Under the pieces are notes generated by a model. It saw only the letters and a program-made list of their open reading frames with translations. It was not told where the DNA came from and did no database searches. Shown one piece after another: positions 3,984-31,506 of a stretch of DNA of 31,852 bases (positions within the stretch are counted from its first letter, which is position 1; each line of letters opens with the position of its first letter). The DNA comes from an uncultured Oscillospiraceae bacterium (GTDB lineage Bacteria; Bacillota; Clostridia; Oscillospirales; Oscillospiraceae). The translations under genes and the position numbers were made by a program. The stretch is from positions 1 through 31,852 of the forward strand of contig CAAFLF010000024.1 of the NCBI GenBank assembly GCA_900763685.1. Direction: 5' to 3'.

Positions 3984-4526
3984 TCATTCCGCCAGGTCCC
4001 GGCCCAGCTGATAGGCCTGGTCCATGGCCGGGGAGTTCCGGATGTCGCCCGCGTCATTGGCGTTGGTGCCAAGGATCACGCCGCCCTCCACGGCCTCCGG
4101 CACGCGGCAGGTGAAGCCCCGGAGGGACGCCAGCATGGTCTCAGTAAGGGCATCGTCCGGCGCGGCGCAGGTGACAAGGAAGCAGAAGGTCTTTCCCACC
4201 AGCTGGGAGTAGAAGGCGTACGTCCGGTCCAGCACCGCCTTCAGCTGGGCGGGCATGGAGTAGAAGTAGATGGGGGAGGCCAGGACGATGATGTCCGCCG
4301 CCAGCATGGCTTCCCGGATCTCCGCCATGTCGTCGGTCTGGACGCAGGCGCCGCCGTTGCGGTAGCAGGCGTTGCAGCCGAGGCAGCCGGCGACCCGCTT
4401 CCGGGCCGCGGCGATGCGTGTCACGGTATGACCGGCCTCCTCCGCTCCCCGGGCGAAGGCGTCGCTGAGAAGGTGGGAGTTGCCGTTGGGCCGGGGACTG
4501 CCTTCCAAGATGAGAACGTTCTTCAT
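3984..4526 (-). CDS. Flavodoxin-fold NAD(P)H-dependent FMN reductase / iron-sulfur flavoprotein-like
   Basis: A 180-residue flavodoxin-fold protein. The FMN phosphate loop is GSPRPNGNS (residues ~9-17) and the flavin-binding loop is ASPIYFYSMPAQLKAVLDR. Between them lies a compact cysteine cluster, C48-x2-C51-x2-C54-x6-C61, followed by DDM. That spacing fits the CX2CX2CX4-7C motif known for archaeal Isf iron-sulfur flavoproteins, so a [4Fe-4S] cluster is plausible but inferred. ATG 4526 is chosen for its AGGAGGTCCCT upstream; the longer frame back to 4553 extends into the inserted 280-bp repeat and is not original. Last gene of the MarR operon; probably reduces quinones or other electrophiles, or passes electrons. 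Confidence 0.85.
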   Translation of the reverse strand: MKNVLILEGSPRPNGNSHLLSDAFARGAEEAGHTVTRIAAARKRVAGCLGCNACYRNGGACVQTDDMAEIREAMLAADIIVLASPIYFYSMPAQLKAVLDRTYAFYSQLVGKTFCFLVTCAAPDDALTETMLASLRGFTCRVPEAVEGGVILGTNANDAGDIRNSPAMDQAYQLGRDLAE

Positions 4527-4539
4527 AGGGACCTCCTTA

Positions 4540-4819
4540 CCCTCGGTTGACAAGGGTTGACAAGGGCAGACGCGCTTTCCGACGGCCCTGATGGGCGCTG
4601 GATGTCGTCATCGTCCTAGGCGGGCGTCAGCCCGCCGTCGTCCTCATCCTCGCCAGAGCCCATCATTGCTCGCCGGAAAGTCCTTCGGAGTTTTTCGGGA
4701 GCGGAAACGGCGGCCGGCGAGGCGGACGAGGCAGCCGGGCTGGCGCCCGGCAACAAGGAAAACGAAGCTGGTGGTCGTTTCAGCCCCGGAAAACCGTGTT
4801 TGCCCTTATCAACCGAGGG
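4540..4819. mobile_element. 280-bp MITE-like element with terminal inverted repeats and TA flanks
   Basis: The ends are inverted repeats: CCCTCGGTTGACAAGGG (4540-4556) and its reverse complement with one change (4803-4819). Weaker similarity runs further inward once a 10-bp tandem duplication (GGTTGACAAG, 4545-4564) is allowed for. TA flanks each side (4538-4539, 4820-4821), the target duplication of IS630/Tc1-mariner elements. The interior has no credible gene but several hairpins (4591-4601 with 4653-4663; 4619-4636; 4734-4750). Joining the flanks through one TA gives GGGTAAGGAGGTCCCTATG: a TAA stop for the upstream gene and the ribosome binding site and start of the downstream gene. This restoration of a compact gene junction is strong evidence for insertion. 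The transposase family is inferred from the TA only. Confidence 0.75.
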
Positions 4820-5421
4820 TACCCGTTGGTGATGCCCAGGCTCTCGTTGGCGCCCAGGGTCTCGTTTCGGACGATGTCGGCCATGCACTGGGCGATGGCC
4901 GCCCGGTCCACGGTCCAGCAGGCGGGTTTCTCCCCCTCCCGGGTCAGGGCGTAGCTCTCGCCCTCCCCATCCCGGATGCCGGGACAGCGCAGCAGGGTAG
5001 TGGCGGCGGAGCTGGCGGCGATGGTGTCCGCCGCCTGGATATACTCCGGCATCTTCTTCGCAAGCTGATTGAGCATGATGCCATGCAGCCCCTTGATCTC
5101 GTGGTGGATGTCCGTGCCGGTGATCCAGACGATCCGGTGGACGGAGGTCTCCTCCAGGGCGGAGACGATGTTTCTCGCCATGGTCAGCACGTCCCCCTCC
5201 AGGGAGCAGAGCAGGATGTCCTGGCCCTCCATGGCCCGCTTCACATCCTCCCTCTTCAGGGCGTCGCCCTGGAGGATATGGGTGTCGCCCAGATCCATGT
5301 CCCCGAACTTCCCGGGGTTCCGGACGAAGACGGAGAGCTGGACGTCCGGCTCTTGCGGCATCTTCCGGGTGAGGTACTTGCCGGTGTGTCCGGCGGCGCC
5401 AAAGATCACGACTTTCTTCAT
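4780..5421 (-). CDS. NAD(P)-binding oxidoreductase (atypical SDR, NmrA/YwnB-like)
   Basis: A 213-residue Rossmann-fold protein with the dinucleotide motif VVIFGAAGHTGKYL (G8, G11, G14) at the N-terminus. It has the usual features of short atypical SDR proteins of the NAD(P)H-binding family (LQGDALKREDVKRAMEGQD, HRIVWITGTDIHHE), with no classical YxxxK. ATG 5421 is preferred over the in-frame ATG 5430 because AAAGGA lies 8 bases upstream. Its last 13 codons (YPRLIRANTVFRG) are supplied by the inserted 280-bp element; the ancestral protein most likely ended at ...GITNG with TAA. It starts 17 bases after the MATE gene, in the same MarR operon. The substrate is unknown. Confidence 0.85.
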   Translation of the reverse strand: MKKVVIFGAAGHTGKYLTRKMPQEPDVQLSVFVRNPGKFGDMDLGDTHILQGDALKREDVKRAMEGQDILLCSLEGDVLTMARNIVSALEETSVHRIVWITGTDIHHEIKGLHGIMLNQLAKKMPEYIQAADTIAASSAATTLLRCPGIRDGEGESYALTREGEKPACWTVDRAAIAQCMADIVRNETLGANESLGITNGYPRLIRANTVFRG

Positions 5422-5438
5422 AACGATCATCCTTTCTG

Positions 5439-6786
5439 TCAGTTGACAGCCATTTCCGGCTGCCAGAGGGGACGGAACCTGCGGAAGTAGTAGAGGCTCA
5501 TGGTGACGCTGAGGATCTCACCCGCGGCCAGGGAAAGCCACACGCCGTCCATCCCCCAGAGGCGGGGCAGCACCAGCACCGGCAGCACCATAAAGACGAT
5601 GGTCCGGCAGAAGGAGAGGATGGCGGAGGTCCGGCCGTCATTCAGGGCGGTGAACCAGCCGGAGGCGAAGATGTTGCAGGCCATCATCACGAAGCTGACG
5701 GCGGCGATACGGAAGCCCCGGAGGGCCACGGCGGCCACATGGGCGTTGCCCTTGGCGAAAACGTCCACCACTGCGCCGCCGAAGAGGTAGCTGGCGGCGG
5801 TGACCGCCAGGGCGGTGACACCCAGAGTCCGGACGCTGATGCGAAAGAGCCGCTGGAGCCGGGCGGTATCGCCCTTGCCCAGGTTATAGCTCACCACCGA
5901 GGAGATGCCGTTGATATACCCCCGGAAGAGCCCGCCGAAGAGGCCCTGGGCGTACCAGATGATGGTGAGGGAGGCCACGCCGTCCGACCCGCCCAGGTCC
6001 ATGAGGATGCGGTTAAAGAGGATGGTGACCACGGAGAAGGCCAGGACGCTGACCATCTCCGAGGCGCCGTTGGCGCAGCTCTGCAGCAGGGTCCTGGGCC
6101 GCCATTTTGGCCGGACCACATAGAGGGCCAGGTCCCGGCGGACACAGAAAAAGACCGTTCCCACCAGGGAGGGGAAGGCGTAGCCGATGCTGGTGGCGAT
6201 GGCCGCCCCATGAGCCCCAGCCGAAGACCGCCATGAAAAGCCGGTCCAGCACGATGTTCAGCACCCCGCCGATGACGGAGAGGGCCGCCCCCAGCCCCGC
6301 CCGTCCCACGGTGATGAAGCTCAGCTGGAACACCATGCCGAAGACGGCGAAGGGGATGGAGACCAGCACCGGGACCATGTAGTCCCGGCAGTAGGGGAGC
6401 AGGGCCTCGTCCGAGCCCAGGAAGCGGCAGAGGGGGTCCAGGAAGAGGAAGCAGAGGAAGGCCAGCACCACGCTGAAGGCGAAGGCCACCGCCATCAGGA
6501 GGGAGAAGTCCTCCCGGGCTTCCGGCCCCTTGCCCTCCCCCAGCTTTTTCGCGACCAAAGCGTTGCCTCCGGTGCCGAACATCATGCCGAGGGCGGAGGC
6601 GAGATACGTCATGGGCAGGGTGATGTTGATGGCGGAGAGGGCGTCCGTGTCCACCCAGCGGGCTACGAAAATGCCGTCCACGGTGGTGTAGAGGTTCGCG
6701 AAGATGCTGGAGAAAATGGTGGGCAGGGCGAAGAGCAGCAGCCAGCGGAAGCTGACTTCATGCTCCAGTTTCATTTGCGGTTCCAC
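5439..6786 (-). pseudogene. MATE-family efflux transporter, frameshifted
   Basis: Two overlapping frames together make a full MATE (MOP superfamily) multidrug/Na+ antiporter of about 449 codons. The N-terminal half (VSFRWLLLFALPTIFSSIF ... VLDRLFMAVFGWG) breaks at about 6206-6220. The C-terminal half continues in another frame (GAAIATSIGYAFPSLVGTV ... to the end). The total length is 1 modulo 3, so one base is extra (for example in the GGGG run) or two are missing (for example GC, giving the usual WGAHGAAIAT). GTG 6786 is the start, with AAAGGAG 7 bases upstream. It may be a true mutation or a sequence error. It lies 80 bases after marR and 17 bases before the oxidoreductase gene, so it belongs to a MarR-controlled efflux/detoxification operon. 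Confidence 0.85.
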
Positions 6787-26729: not shown

Positions 26730-28235
26730 TTACTTGCCCTGCTTGGCCTTCTTCTTGTCGTAGTAGATGGCGTTGTGGGGGAGCTCCATGCCGCCGGGCA
26801 GCTTGCCGTCCTGCAACATCTTGGAGTAAAGGATATCCTCCACGCTGACGCCTTCCCAGCGGCCATGCTCGTAGTTGCCGCGGATCTGGAAGTAGAAGAT
26901 GAAGCCCAGGATGATCCACACGCCCAGAATGATCCAGGAGGGAACGGGCAGGAAGCCGGGCATGCCGGGGATGAAGGTGATGATAAGGAAGATGGAGGCC
27001 ACGGCGATGCCGAGAGCGCTGATGGCGAACTGCTTCTTGTTGCCATCGTGCTTGGCGAGGACGGTGGCGGAGCAGCAGGTGTAGAGGAAGCCGGCGCCGG
27101 CGCCCACGCAGGTCATATCGACGATCCAGGAGAGGACCTGACGGCCGAACCAGGGAGCGATGAGGGCCAGGATCATCATGAACAGCAGAGCGTTCTTGGG
27201 AGTGCCGGCCTTGCTGAGGTGGGCGAACTTGGAGGGCAGAGCGTCCGCGTAAGCCATGGAGTAAATGAGACGGCTGGACGCCATGTAGAAGCCGTTGATG
27301 CCGGAGACCACGGCGCAGAGCATCGCGATACCGCAGAAGAAAACGCCCACGTAGCCGATGTTCTTGAGGATCATCTCGCCAGTAGCCCAAGAGGGGTTGG
27401 AAGCCAGCATGGCCTGCCAGGGATCCACCACGGCGGTGACGAAGACCATGGCGGAGTAGATGAGGCCGCCCACGAGGATGGCGCCGATCATGAGGCCGAG
27501 GGCCGCCTTATGGGAGAAGCTGTATTCCTCGGCCGCTTGCGGGATCGTATCAAAGCCCACGAAGCAGTAGGGAGTGAAGGCCACCACGGCCATGATGCAG
27601 GAGAAGGAGGACTTGCCCTCCTGGAAGTAGGGCTGCAGGTTGGTATAGTCGGGCTTGCTGACGAGGGTCATGACCAGCACGAAGAGGACGGATGCGGCCA
27701 GAGCCACGGCCACGATGGTCTGGAACCAACCGGCGCTCTTGACGCCCCGGATGTTCACGATGCCGAGGCCGATGATGAAGGCGTAGGCCAGGATGATCTC
27801 ACCGATGTAGACGTCCCAACCGGCGATGGTGTAGAGATAGCCGAACTGGAAGGGAGAGCCGGGGAGGATGTAGCGGGAGACCATGGCGATGGCCGTGGAG
27901 TTCAGGGGGATCAGGGACCAGTAGGCCAGAACCAGAGACCAGCCGCAGACGAAGGCGTGCTTCTTGCCGAAAGCGGAGTCAGAGTACACGAACTCGCCGC
28001 CGGAAAGGGGGAACTTCTGGATCATGTAGCCATAGCTGAAGCTGATGATGGAAATGATGAGAGCGCCCAGCATCAGACCGACGATGGAACCGATGGGGCC
28101 CGCCTTGGGCAGGAAGGACGTGCCGGGCATGACGAAGCAGCCCCAGCCGATGATGGCACCCAGGGCCAGGGCCCAGATGTCGATCTTGCGAAGGTCTTTC
28201 TTAAATTGGCCTTCAGCCTGCGGTTGATTGGACAT
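26730..28235 (-). CDS. APC-superfamily amino acid permease (copy 1, intact)
   Basis: A 501-residue membrane transporter with about 12-13 hydrophobic segments. The first helix has the APC consensus glycines (LGAIIGWGCFVMPGTSFLP), followed by GSIVGLMLGALIISIISFSY and FPLSGGEFVYSDSAFGKKHA. Later come FTPYCFVGFDTIPQAAEEYS, and SGINGFYMASSRLIYSMA. The cytoplasmic C-terminal tail (VEDILYSKMLQDGKLPGG) is shared with copy 2. CAGGAGG lies 8 bases before ATG 28235. The leader contains a 7-bp stem (28282-28288 with 28299-28305). The substrate is not determined; amino acid uptake or exchange is likely. Confidence 0.92.
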   Translation of the reverse strand: MSNQPQAEGQFKKDLRKIDIWALALGAIIGWGCFVMPGTSFLPKAGPIGSIVGLMLGALIISIISFSYGYMIQKFPLSGGEFVYSDSAFGKKHAFVCGWSLVLAYWSLIPLNSTAIAMVSRYILPGSPFQFGYLYTIAGWDVYIGEIILAYAFIIGLGIVNIRGVKSAGWFQTIVAVALAASVLFVLVMTLVSKPDYTNLQPYFQEGKSSFSCIMAVVAFTPYCFVGFDTIPQAAEEYSFSHKAALGLMIGAILVGGLIYSAMVFVTAVVDPWQAMLASNPSWATGEMILKNIGYVGVFFCGIAMLCAVVSGINGFYMASSRLIYSMAYADALPSKFAHLSKAGTPKNALLFMMILALIAPWFGRQVLSWIVDMTCVGAGAGFLYTCCSATVLAKHDGNKKQFAISALGIAVASIFLIITFIPGMPGFLPVPSWIILGVWIILGFIFYFQIRGNYEHGRWEGVSVEDILYSKMLQDGKLPGGMELPHNAIYYDKKKAKQGK

Positions 28236-28751
28236 AGAATGAACCTCCTGTTTTCAGATGTGTGTCTCTCTCTGAAATGCATTGCGGCGAAATTATTTGC
28301 CGCAAAAGTATGTTAACAGATTTTTAGCAAGATGGATAGTGGAATTCTTAACAAAATGTAAATAAAGATTTTGTGAAGTTAAACAATTGACAATGTCCCG
28401 CAAAGCTCGAAAGAATCGAAAACTTTTTTGACGATTTCGTGCAAAAAGTCTGTTCAGCTAACAAAATTTTTGACAAATAAGCGGATGTTTAGGCGGTGAC
28501 ATCAAATGTTGGATTTCCGCCTTTTGGTGTTGGGAATAAACGAGTTTAGAGAAAAGAGGGGTCATATGTCTTGCGATTTGACCGGAAAACGCTGGAATCG
28601 CTGAAACCTCGTTTCTGCTCAATGGGAGAAAAATCAACGAATGTCCACGCCGGAAGGACAAACGAGGACAGAGGAAAGGACGCCTTTCGGCGTCCTTTCC
28701 TCTGTTGGGGGGAATATAGGAATGGGAATAAGGGAAAACAGGATCAGGGGC
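28236..28751. other. AT-rich intergenic region between the two permease genes
   Basis: No convincing gene. It holds the leader and upstream region of permease 1 with a TGTTAACA palindrome (28311-28318), further TTAACA/CTAACA-like repeats (about 28348 and 28458), several TTGACA-like boxes without a clean -10 partner, and the terminator of permease 2 at its right end. Confidence 0.6.
28668..28705. terminator. Terminator of permease 2
   Basis: A perfect 17-bp stem, 28668-28684 with 28689-28705 (core GGAAAGGACGCC / GGCGTCCTTTCC), loop TTTC. It lies about 46 bases past the permease stop on the minus strand. The T-tail is weak, but the stem is very strong. Confidence 0.75.
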
Positions 28752-30256
28752 TCACTTCGCGGCCTTGCGCTTGTCGTAGTAGATAGAGTTGTGAGGCAGC
28801 TCGGCGCCGTCCGGCAGCTTGCCGTCCTGGAGCATCTTGGAGTAGAGGATATCCTCCACACTGACGCCTTCCCAGCGGCCGTGCTCATACTCGCCCCGAA
28901 TCTGGAAGTAGAAGACCAGGCCCATGATGACCCAGACGCCCAGGATGATCCAGGAGGGGATGGAGAGGAAGCCGGGCATGCTGGGGATGAAGGTGATGAT
29001 GAGGAAGACAGAGGCCACGCAGATGCCGAGGGCGCTGATGGCGGTCTGCTTCTTGTCGCCGTAGTGCTTAGAGAGCACGGTGGCGGAGCAGCAGGTGTAG
29101 AGGAAGCCGAAGGCAGAGCCCACGCAGGTCATATCCACGATCCAGGAGAGGACCTGACGGCCGAACCAGGGAGCGATGAGGGCCAGGATCATGACGAAGA
29201 GCAGAGCGTTCTTGGGGGTGCCCTGGGGCGTCAGATGGGCGAACTTCTGGGGCAGGGCGTCGGCGTAGGCCATGGAGTAGATAAGGCGGCTGGAGGCCAT
29301 GTAGAAGCCATTGATGCCGGAGACCACAGCGCAGAGCATTGCGATACCGCAGAAGAAGACGCCCACGTAGCCGATGCTCTTGAGGATCATCTCACCGGTA
29401 GCCCAGTCGGGGTTGGCAGCCAGCATGGCCTGCCAAGGATCCACCACGGCGGTGACGAAGACCACGGCGCAGTAGATGAGACCGCCCACCATGATGGCGC
29501 CGATCATCAGGCCCAGCGCCGCTTTGTGGGAGAAGTTATACGCCTCCGCCGCCTGGGGAATGGTGTCAAAGCCCACGAAGCAGTAGGGGGTAAAGGCCAG
29601 GATGGCGATGATGCAGGAGAAGGGGGACTTGCCCTCCTGGAAGTAGGGCTGCAGGTTGCTGAAGTCCGGCTTGCTGATGAGAGTAACCACCAGCACGAAG
29701 AGGACGGAACCCGCCAGGGAGACGGCCACCAGGGTCTGGAACCAGCCGGCGCTCTTGACGCCCCGGATGTTCACGATGCCGAGGCCGATAATGAAGGCGT
29801 AAGCCAGGATGATCTCACCGATGTAGACATCCCAGCCGGCGATGGTGTAGAGGTAGCCGAACTGGAAGGGGGAACCGGGCAGGATGTAGCGGGAGACCAT
29901 GGCCACGGCGGTGGAGTTCAGAGGGATCAGGGACCAGTAGGCCAGAACCAGGGACCAGCCGCAGATGAAGGCGTGCTTCTTGCCAAAAGCGGAGTCGGCG
30001 TAGACGAACTCACCGCCGGAGAGGGGGAACTTCTGGATCATGTAGCCGTAGCTGAAGCTGATGATGGAGATGACCACAGCGCCCAGCAGCAGGCCCAGGA
30101 TGGCGCCCATGGGGCTGGCCTTGGGCAGGAAGTCCGTCCCGGGAAGAACGAAGCAGCCCCAACCGATGATGTGATGGCGCCCAGGGCCAGGGACCAGATG
30201 TCGATTTTCCGAAGGTCTTTCTTAAATTGACCTTCCGTTTGCGGTTGATTGGACAT
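28752..30256 (-). pseudogene. APC-superfamily amino acid permease (copy 2, disrupted by a 5-bp duplication)
   Basis: Paralog of the intact neighbour, nearly identical in protein sequence through most of its length. It starts at ATG 30256 (AGGAGG 8-9 bases upstream) with MSNQPQTEGQFKKDLRKIDI as in copy 1. At 30167-30176 the sequence TGATG occurs twice in tandem where copy 1 has it once. This shifts the frame after LGAI in the first helix; removing five bases restores LGAIIGWGCFVLPGT. The rest (28752 to about 30160) is a clean open frame, which could still start at ATG 30110 without the first helix. It is either a recent loss of function or a reversible switch. Repaired length would be 499 residues. 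Confidence 0.88.
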
Positions 30257-30627
30257 AAGCAAACCTCCTAGTTTGATCGCGCCCGGAGTGGGGAAGAGGC
30301 GCGGTGCCGCCCGCCGGAAAGGGTACGGAGAGAACTCTCGACGGTGGGTTTCTGGCGACATGTTAACAAAAGATGAACGTCTTGACTACTGATGGGAAGC
30401 ACAAAGAAACCTGCTGAAATTTGTGAAAAACAGCACTTGACGGCACTTTTTATTAAGGAAATCATTTTGCTTGCAAAAAAGTTGTGAAGGTTCTTACTCT
30501 ACATATAAAGGGGCTGTTAACAAAAAACGCTAAGGAAACGTTAAGGAACAGCGGAAAGGAACAGGACCACGGCCGAGCCTCGGCCGTGGTCCCTGATGGA
30601 TGGAGCTTTGTTTTTGGAAGACGGGCG
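30257..30627. other. Intergenic region upstream of permease 2
   Basis: No gene seen. It contains the permease 2 leader, two TGTTAACA palindromes (30360-30367 and 30514-30521), AT-rich sequence with TTGACG (about 30447) and TTGCAA-type boxes but no clear promoter, and the terminator of the DivIVA-like gene at 30564-30592. Confidence 0.6.
30564..30592 (-). terminator. Terminator of the DivIVA-like gene
   Basis: GGACCACGGCCGA (30564-30576) pairs perfectly with TCGGCCGTGGTCC (30580-30592). On the minus strand it runs into TGTTCCTTTCC. It lies 35 bases after the stop codon. Confidence 0.75.
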
Positions 30628-31429: not shown

Positions 31430-31506
31430 GCGCCGTTAGCTCAGCTGGATAGAGCGTCTGGCTACGGACCAGAAGGCCGGGGGTTCGAATCCCTCACGGC
31501 GTACCA
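31430..31506 (+). tRNA. tRNA-Arg (anticodon ACG), CCA encoded
   Basis: A full cloverleaf is visible. The acceptor stem is GCGCCGT with ACGGCGT (the first pair G-U), the D-arm is GCTC...GAGC, the anticodon stem is TCTGG/CCAGA with loop CTACGGA (ACG at the wobble-first position), and the T-arm is GGGGG-TTCGAAT-CCCTC. The 3' CCA (31504-31506) is encoded. ACG is read as ICG after deamination and decodes CGU/CGC/CGA. It is a common integration target, and an integrase gene lies next to it. Confidence 0.97.

Follow-up and report, generated by a model that had tools for sequence, protein, structure and literature searches.

The window analysed here, 31,852 nucleotides of DNA from an uncultured Oscillospiraceae bacterium, contains a structured, gene-free sequence lying between two co-directional genes, and the locus raises the question of what this sequence is and how it came to begin exactly where the upstream reading frame would be expected to stop. 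The explanation that we consider highly probable is that it is a non-autonomous DNA transposon (a MITE), which inserted into the TAA stop codon of a gene for an NAD(P)H-binding protein, at the TA dinucleotide with which that codon starts.

A probable insertion at a stop codon

The principal features of the locus are as follows.

4822–5421, minus strand: gene for an NAD(P)H-binding protein (Pfam NAD_binding_10), 200 aa up to the codon inferred to have been its last
4780–4821, minus strand: C-terminal tail of 13 residues and stop codon supplied by the element
4538–4821, minus strand: whole element, 284 bp with both terminal TAs included
4795–4821, minus strand: terminal inverted repeat (TIR) on the side of the upstream gene, 27 bp, pairing with the other end in 17 copies
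4690–4794, plus strand: hairpin unit A, core at about 4717–4767, purine-rich sense on the plus strand
4575–4680, minus strand: hairpin unit B, core at about 4608–4650, purine-rich sense on the minus strand
4619–4636, minus strand: apical hairpin of the unit B core
4538–4574, minus strand: TIR on the flavoprotein side, holding the 10 bp duplication 4547–4556/4557–4566
3984–4526, minus strand: downstream gene for an FMN-reductase-like flavoprotein (Pfam FMN_red), with its Shine-Dalgarno sequence AGGAGG adjoining the element end

An earlier note on this DNA described an element of about 280 bp at 4538–4821 with 17 bp inverted ends containing one mismatch, TA on both sides, internal hairpins and no gene, and each part of this description holds. 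The coordinates are confirmed, the length is 284 bp, and, counting the TA, the terminal 19 bases of one end differ from those of the other at a single position. The TIRs extend to about 27 bp, and a repeat search of the window gives inverted arms of 28 nt with 82% complementarity. On the operon strand the element starts with TACCCTCGGTTGATAAGGGCAAACACG, and its other end is the inverse of this sequence enlarged by a 10 bp tandem duplication (TTGACAAGGG, at both 4547–4556 and 4557–4566); subtraction of this duplication leaves 274 bp, inside the 273–278 bp range of most full-length relatives. The folding z scores are -6.8 and -7.6 for the two strands, and none of 200 shuffled sequences is equally stable on either. 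Short length, terminal inverted repeats and the lack of a transposase gene are all features of MITEs, and all are present.

The upstream protein is extended by YPRLIRANTVFRG (13 residues), with a stop codon at 4782–4780 within the element, as in the earlier note. When the flanks are joined by eye without the element they read ...GGG-TA-AGGAGGTCCCT-ATG, and the single-TA junction gives the oxidoreductase stop followed by the ribosome site and start of the flavoprotein gene, as the earlier note had also proposed. That the NAD(P)H-binding protein originally ended ...GITNG-stop is supported by comparison with its homologues, 471 of which passed the threshold. Among the 120 of these in the matches listed, 118 terminate between -1 and +4 residues from the insertion point, including the nearest untailed homologue among the matches listed (P0003; 86%, 200 aa), which ends exactly at ...GITNG. 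The proposed splitting of a TAA stop is thus supported at the protein level, with the element-free homologues ending where the stop was predicted. The other two listed homologues both have the same element-encoded tail: P0002 (98%; a cluster of 112 member sequences, 4 contigs) and the shorter P0042. Because these proteins are also tailed, the insertion is unlikely to be an artefact of a single assembly. In two relatives for which the DNA was read (L001 and L002), the genes end one residue before and one residue after the insertion point respectively; their gene neighbourhoods differ from that in the window.

The two genes flanking the element seem to be linked in other genomes too, since in 14 cases, P0003/P0128 included, the longest contigs in the upstream-protein and flavoprotein homologue lists are equal in length. 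The upstream protein was found in none of 400 genomes of the family sampled below, in a search that had no positive control.

Two other features of the window were observed. A MATE efflux gene lies upstream in the same direction (5439–6786, minus strand) as two overlapping frames (6013–6786 and 5439–6164), both with a MatE match, reflecting either a frameshift or a sequencing error; in L001 a MATE-like gene comes after the oxidoreductase homologue. Farther away (26730–30361, minus strand) are tandem amino-acid permease genes that are 88% identical over 452 residues, and the second of these, with its start out of frame (30038–30361), may be a young decaying duplicate.

Related copies and a hairpin core between different ends

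We searched 400 genomes of one Clostridia family, which we take to be the Oscillospiraceae, in a sample centred on G037, the genome with the closest HflX protein (71%) among 291 Clostridia genomes sampled. Matches to the element are present in 53 of the 400, many of them spanning only 30–70 bp of the core. Closer searching of 14 matching genomes with inspection of the ends gave full copies of 273–277 bp with matching ends, and with further copies added the range is 273–278 bp. TA is present at both ends in 22 of 27 copies compared, all from genomes other than that of the window; this count is partly circular because many copy boundaries were picked with TA required, although the circularity does not touch the matching TIRs or the constant length of the copies. 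The flanks of the 27 copies are unrelated, with the exception of one orthologous pair, L027 and L028 (in G378 and G618), which appears to be one insertion retained in two genomes, with flanks 94–99% alike and decayed TA ends. Two copies that are 99% alike (L056 and L061) occupy different places of one genome, and four copies in G695, which is related to G661, are 89–92% like L045 and lie at other places. An empty site for L045 was not found among its relatives, in which the two flanks are not adjacent. BLAST searches of the element against plasmids and phages gave no match, nor did a 20-mer TIR pattern in viral contigs; the single viral match to a 17-mer TIR pattern (L003) lacks a second end and was set aside as chance.

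Elements with like ends fall into length classes of 44–73, 113–171 and 238–331 bp, with 10 pieces in the first class and 4 in the second. A strict core finder, which also misses the core in some two-unit copies, reports it in one of the four 113–171 bp pieces, and a modular reading of the window's TIR type is based partly on length. Several TIR-only palindromes of 44–66 bp with TA ends were also seen (L098 at 6653–6696, L198–L203, L102 and L110), in which both halves have the identical variant of the outer TIR bases.

These copies bear on an alternative explanation, that the sequence is not mobile but is a locus-specific regulatory RNA such as an attenuator or terminator of the operon. Its strong fold between two co-directional genes is consistent with this, but related copies are found elsewhere at unrelated, mostly TA-flanked sites, and 118 of the 120 listed upstream-protein homologues end without the element. 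Moreover, no promoter-like site was found in the element, and its lone terminator-like site is on the strand opposite to the operon, with 0.5 such sites expected by chance. We regard a regulatory RNA confined to this locus as very improbable indeed. The earlier note had called for a search for further TA-flanked copies, and their presence in other genomes favours the MITE interpretation.

To describe the architecture of the MITE we aligned 17 full two-unit copies (alignment A1), leaving out L048 (331 bp, with an insertion), L051 (238 bp, with a deletion), L027 and L028 for their decayed ends, the distant L098, partial hits and copies fetched later. The consensus fold consists of a TIR stem, unit A, a tiny hairpin and unit B; the two units are roughly the inverse of each other, and each has a core near GGACGCAGGCGGGCTGNCGCCCGCCAAGGACGA on one strand. 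Changes on both sides occur in 59 of 97 pairs, a count inflated by related rows, and 93.7% of cells are paired compared with 77.1% in shuffled and 38–46% in slid alignments, the last comparison being flattering because these sequences had themselves been used to fit the structure. On comparison of G-U with A-C cells, the strand test on the fitted structure is clear for unit B only. The signal is weakened when only strand-shared pairs are used, with unit A in A1 leaning to the core-sense strand (4 versus 24 cells; 2 versus 9 columns, p 0.07) and unit B and the one-unit elements being neutral (8 versus 6 cells each). On strand-shared pairs we read this test as a hint for unit A, short of proof, and as neutral elsewhere. 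The folded hairpins of the family look as though they are preserved by selection.

A hairpin core of about 33 nt recurs in TA-ended elements of 155–162 bp whose TIRs are quite different. Both this core and the two-unit architecture go beyond the earlier note. A core pattern matches 33 places in 9 of 200 family genomes, 16 of them in one genome, and a control pattern matches none. We examined 39 distinct core places, of which 12 are near contig ends and 27 could be judged; TA-ended inverted repeats flank 16 of the 27, among which are the known two-unit copy L153 and a few closely related elements, and the other 11 lack clear ones, compared with 0 of 400 random positions having such repeats. The ends around the core differ widely, for example TACTATTCACCG, TAGTGGTGCATC, TATAGTCGACGC and TAGTACTCCACC. 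In the IMG/VR viral collection the core is present in two contigs, L122 and L123, which overlap and contain the same 156 bp element. The genome with 16 core matches (G321, loci L155–L180) has many of them no more than about 60 bases from the end of a contig, a pattern suggestive of a 160 bp element that multiplied recently and broke the assembly.

In a second alignment (A2) of 15 core elements, two of which (L047 and L057) do not have TA at both ends, both-side changes occur in 41 of 53 pairs, including isolated pairs inside a purine-rich internal loop. The most conserved columns of the core flank the apical hairpin within this loop and are largely unpaired, and the consensus energy is -70.6 kcal/mol for the core-sense strand and -30.0 for its complement. 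These observations bear on a further reading, which would add to the MITE interpretation, that the hairpin units are the part under selection, acting as folded RNA or single-stranded DNA, and that the element is the vehicle of a structured module. The both-side changes in the two alignments, the conserved and mostly unpaired positions, the difference in energy between the strands and the shared core between different TIRs are consistent with this. Set against it, the structures were fitted to the same sequences with generous controls, the strand tests are limited as above, template switching can homogenize inverted repeats in the absence of selection, and clear TA-ended TIRs are missing at 11 of the 27 core places that could be judged. 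There is also no Rfam match: a search of the whole window with Rfam 15 at gathering scores reports only a tRNA at 31430–31503 and nothing in the element, and none of four sub-gathering hits from six element loci searched at E up to 1 falls inside an element. We therefore put forward this reading only tentatively, and think it somewhat unlikely as things stand. In its fullest form, the purine-rich bulged hairpin core would function as folded RNA or single-stranded DNA and would have been joined, in Clostridia and their phages, to several TA-transposon ends unrelated to one another, with zero, one or two units per element; the fold would be selected while the ends turn over, a proposal that we hold with the same reserve.

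Candidate mobilizers

The earlier note attributed mobilization to the IS630/Tc1-mariner group on the basis of the TA duplication, and TA ends do fit IS630. Genes with the IS630-type domain DDE_3 are present in 42 of the 400 family genomes and in 5 of 17 element-bearing genomes, and are absent from G657 and G661, which hold most copies. Two IS630 elements with TACT ends, L115 (1116 bp) and L140 (1104 bp), contain genes matching NCBIfam IS630 transposases. Their 45 bp ends resemble those of eight of nine sister elements of the TACT/TACG type (z 3.9–7.7; 1.9 for the ninth), compared with z values of at most 2.7 for four sisters with other TIRs and at most 3.3 for five two-unit elements (2.2 for the window element), each z being the best of 8 comparisons. 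The sisters with IS630-like ends carry the same hairpin core as the window element.

The full element with the same ends that the earlier note suggested looking for was not found in the genomes searched. Window-type TIRs that face each other at the spacing of an IS are absent from the TIR matches in 21 genomes and from 90 G695 relatives, 5 of which gave any hit. Around 12 solo TIR-like places, a search out to 3 kb that allowed up to 6 mismatches found no second end. The TIR pattern matches 88 times in the 21 genomes and its reversed control 22 times; because the control is not negligible, some solo matches will be chance. The solo TIR-like sequences without a second end include L097, L099, L101, L103, L105–L109, L111 and L112; several are just upstream of start codons, and they are either remnants or chance matches.

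Because the likeness of ends is confined to the TACT/TACG sisters, and no autonomous partner was found for the TIR type of the window element, mobilization by IS630 is supported by sequence comparison for the sisters, and for the window element we infer it. For the window element the earlier attribution is kept as the likeliest one; no transposase with its TIR type was found in the genomes searched. Another possibility is that elements with TACC/TAGC-type ends were moved by a different TA-targeting transposase, not of the IS630 group and perhaps gone from the host. The lack of facing TIR pairs agrees with this, as do the lack of IS630 genes in the richest genomes and the dissimilarity between two-unit element ends and resident IS630 ends, but the core and architecture are common to the TACT/TACG sisters with IS630-matching ends, and the TA ends are as expected for IS630. 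We consider a non-IS630 mobilizer unlikely, and IS630 our working assignment.

Consequences and comparison with known elements

Before insertion, the locus would have had a TAA stop overlapping the next ribosome site (TAAGGAGG). The element, comprising two inverted hairpin units between TIRs and having shorter counterparts with like ends, would then have transposed in trans into the TA by means of a transposase that targets this dinucleotide, the IS630/Tc1-mariner group being its likeliest source, with duplication of the target TA, such that the far TA of the element restores TAAGGAGG ahead of the flavoprotein gene. The protein would gain a short C-terminal tail, translation of the two genes would probably be uncoupled by loss of the overlap between stop and ribosome site, and the mRNA would acquire about 240 untranslated, folded bases between the cistrons. 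By analogy with other MITEs, as described in the available portions of two accounts, RNase III could cleave this spacer, or the spacer could protect the 5' portion of the message (PMC3049150, PMC2229807).

Survival at a stop codon is expected if selection removes TA insertions inside genes. In 5 of 20 other loci (L048, L025, L033, L021 and L045) the end of an ORF of 100 aa or longer lies no more than 6 bp from the element, a count with no null model from which we claim no preference for stop codons; Pfam domains are present in three of the five ORFs but not in those of L033 and L021, and the L033 ORF also has no homologue. In L019 a frame of 501 aa terminates within the element; it lacks a Pfam match and is unlikely to be a gene. 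The insertion at the stop codon illustrates neatly which sites in a compact genome can tolerate a TA-targeting element. Of wider interest is a family of gene-free elements in which internal hairpins with compensatory changes and conserved, unpaired tracts of purines are found between transposon ends of different kinds. Were the core to act as RNA or single-stranded DNA, it would be a structured motif without an assigned family, and these MITEs would amount to more than IS remnants produced by internal deletion.

Within the open-licence literature searched, the element family and the core common to different TIRs look undescribed. The family is absent among the matches listed for MITEs in Faecalibacterium, Ruminococcaceae, Oscillospiraceae and Flavonifractor, and the terms 'stop codon', 'IS630' and 'Clostridi' do not occur in the available text of a MITE review (PMC10969869).

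Several well-described elements are similar in part, as judged from the portions of the sources available. The Correia/NEMIS elements of Neisseria have TA ends, long TIRs and transcript hairpins proposed to be RNase III substrates, but are 107 or 155 bp long, and no inverted pair of hairpin units is described in those portions (PMC2229807). CIR repeats of Caulobacter and Brucella have an RNA fold of two arms and a linker, but are only partly MITE-like and have a conserved GANTC loop motif rather than the core found here (PMC2229807). The RUP elements of Streptococcus pneumoniae use TA targets and are linked to IS630 through TIR similarity, as are the TACT/TACG sisters here, but are 107 bp, and the TIR type of the window has no such IS among the genomes searched (PMC3049150, PMC2229807). 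BOX elements of S. pneumoniae, compared here by description, are modular in length with predicted stem-loops, TIRs and target site duplications, but are built of boxA, boxB and boxC modules with tandem boxB, and their TIRs are similar to those of ISSpn2 (PMC3049150). The enterobacterial ERIC/IRU/RU-1 elements have TA termini, a TA duplication and a long stem-loop, but are about 127 bp with a single long stem-loop, and the available text reports no core common to different TIRs (PMC2759123, PMC2229807). There are published precedents for TA-ended MITEs that form hairpins in transcripts and change stop codons: BOX supplies the stop codon in 36 of 58 overlapping coding sequences (PMC3049150), and an RU-1 element situated at a gene's 3' end seems to have eliminated the stop codon and lengthened the protein (PMC2759123).
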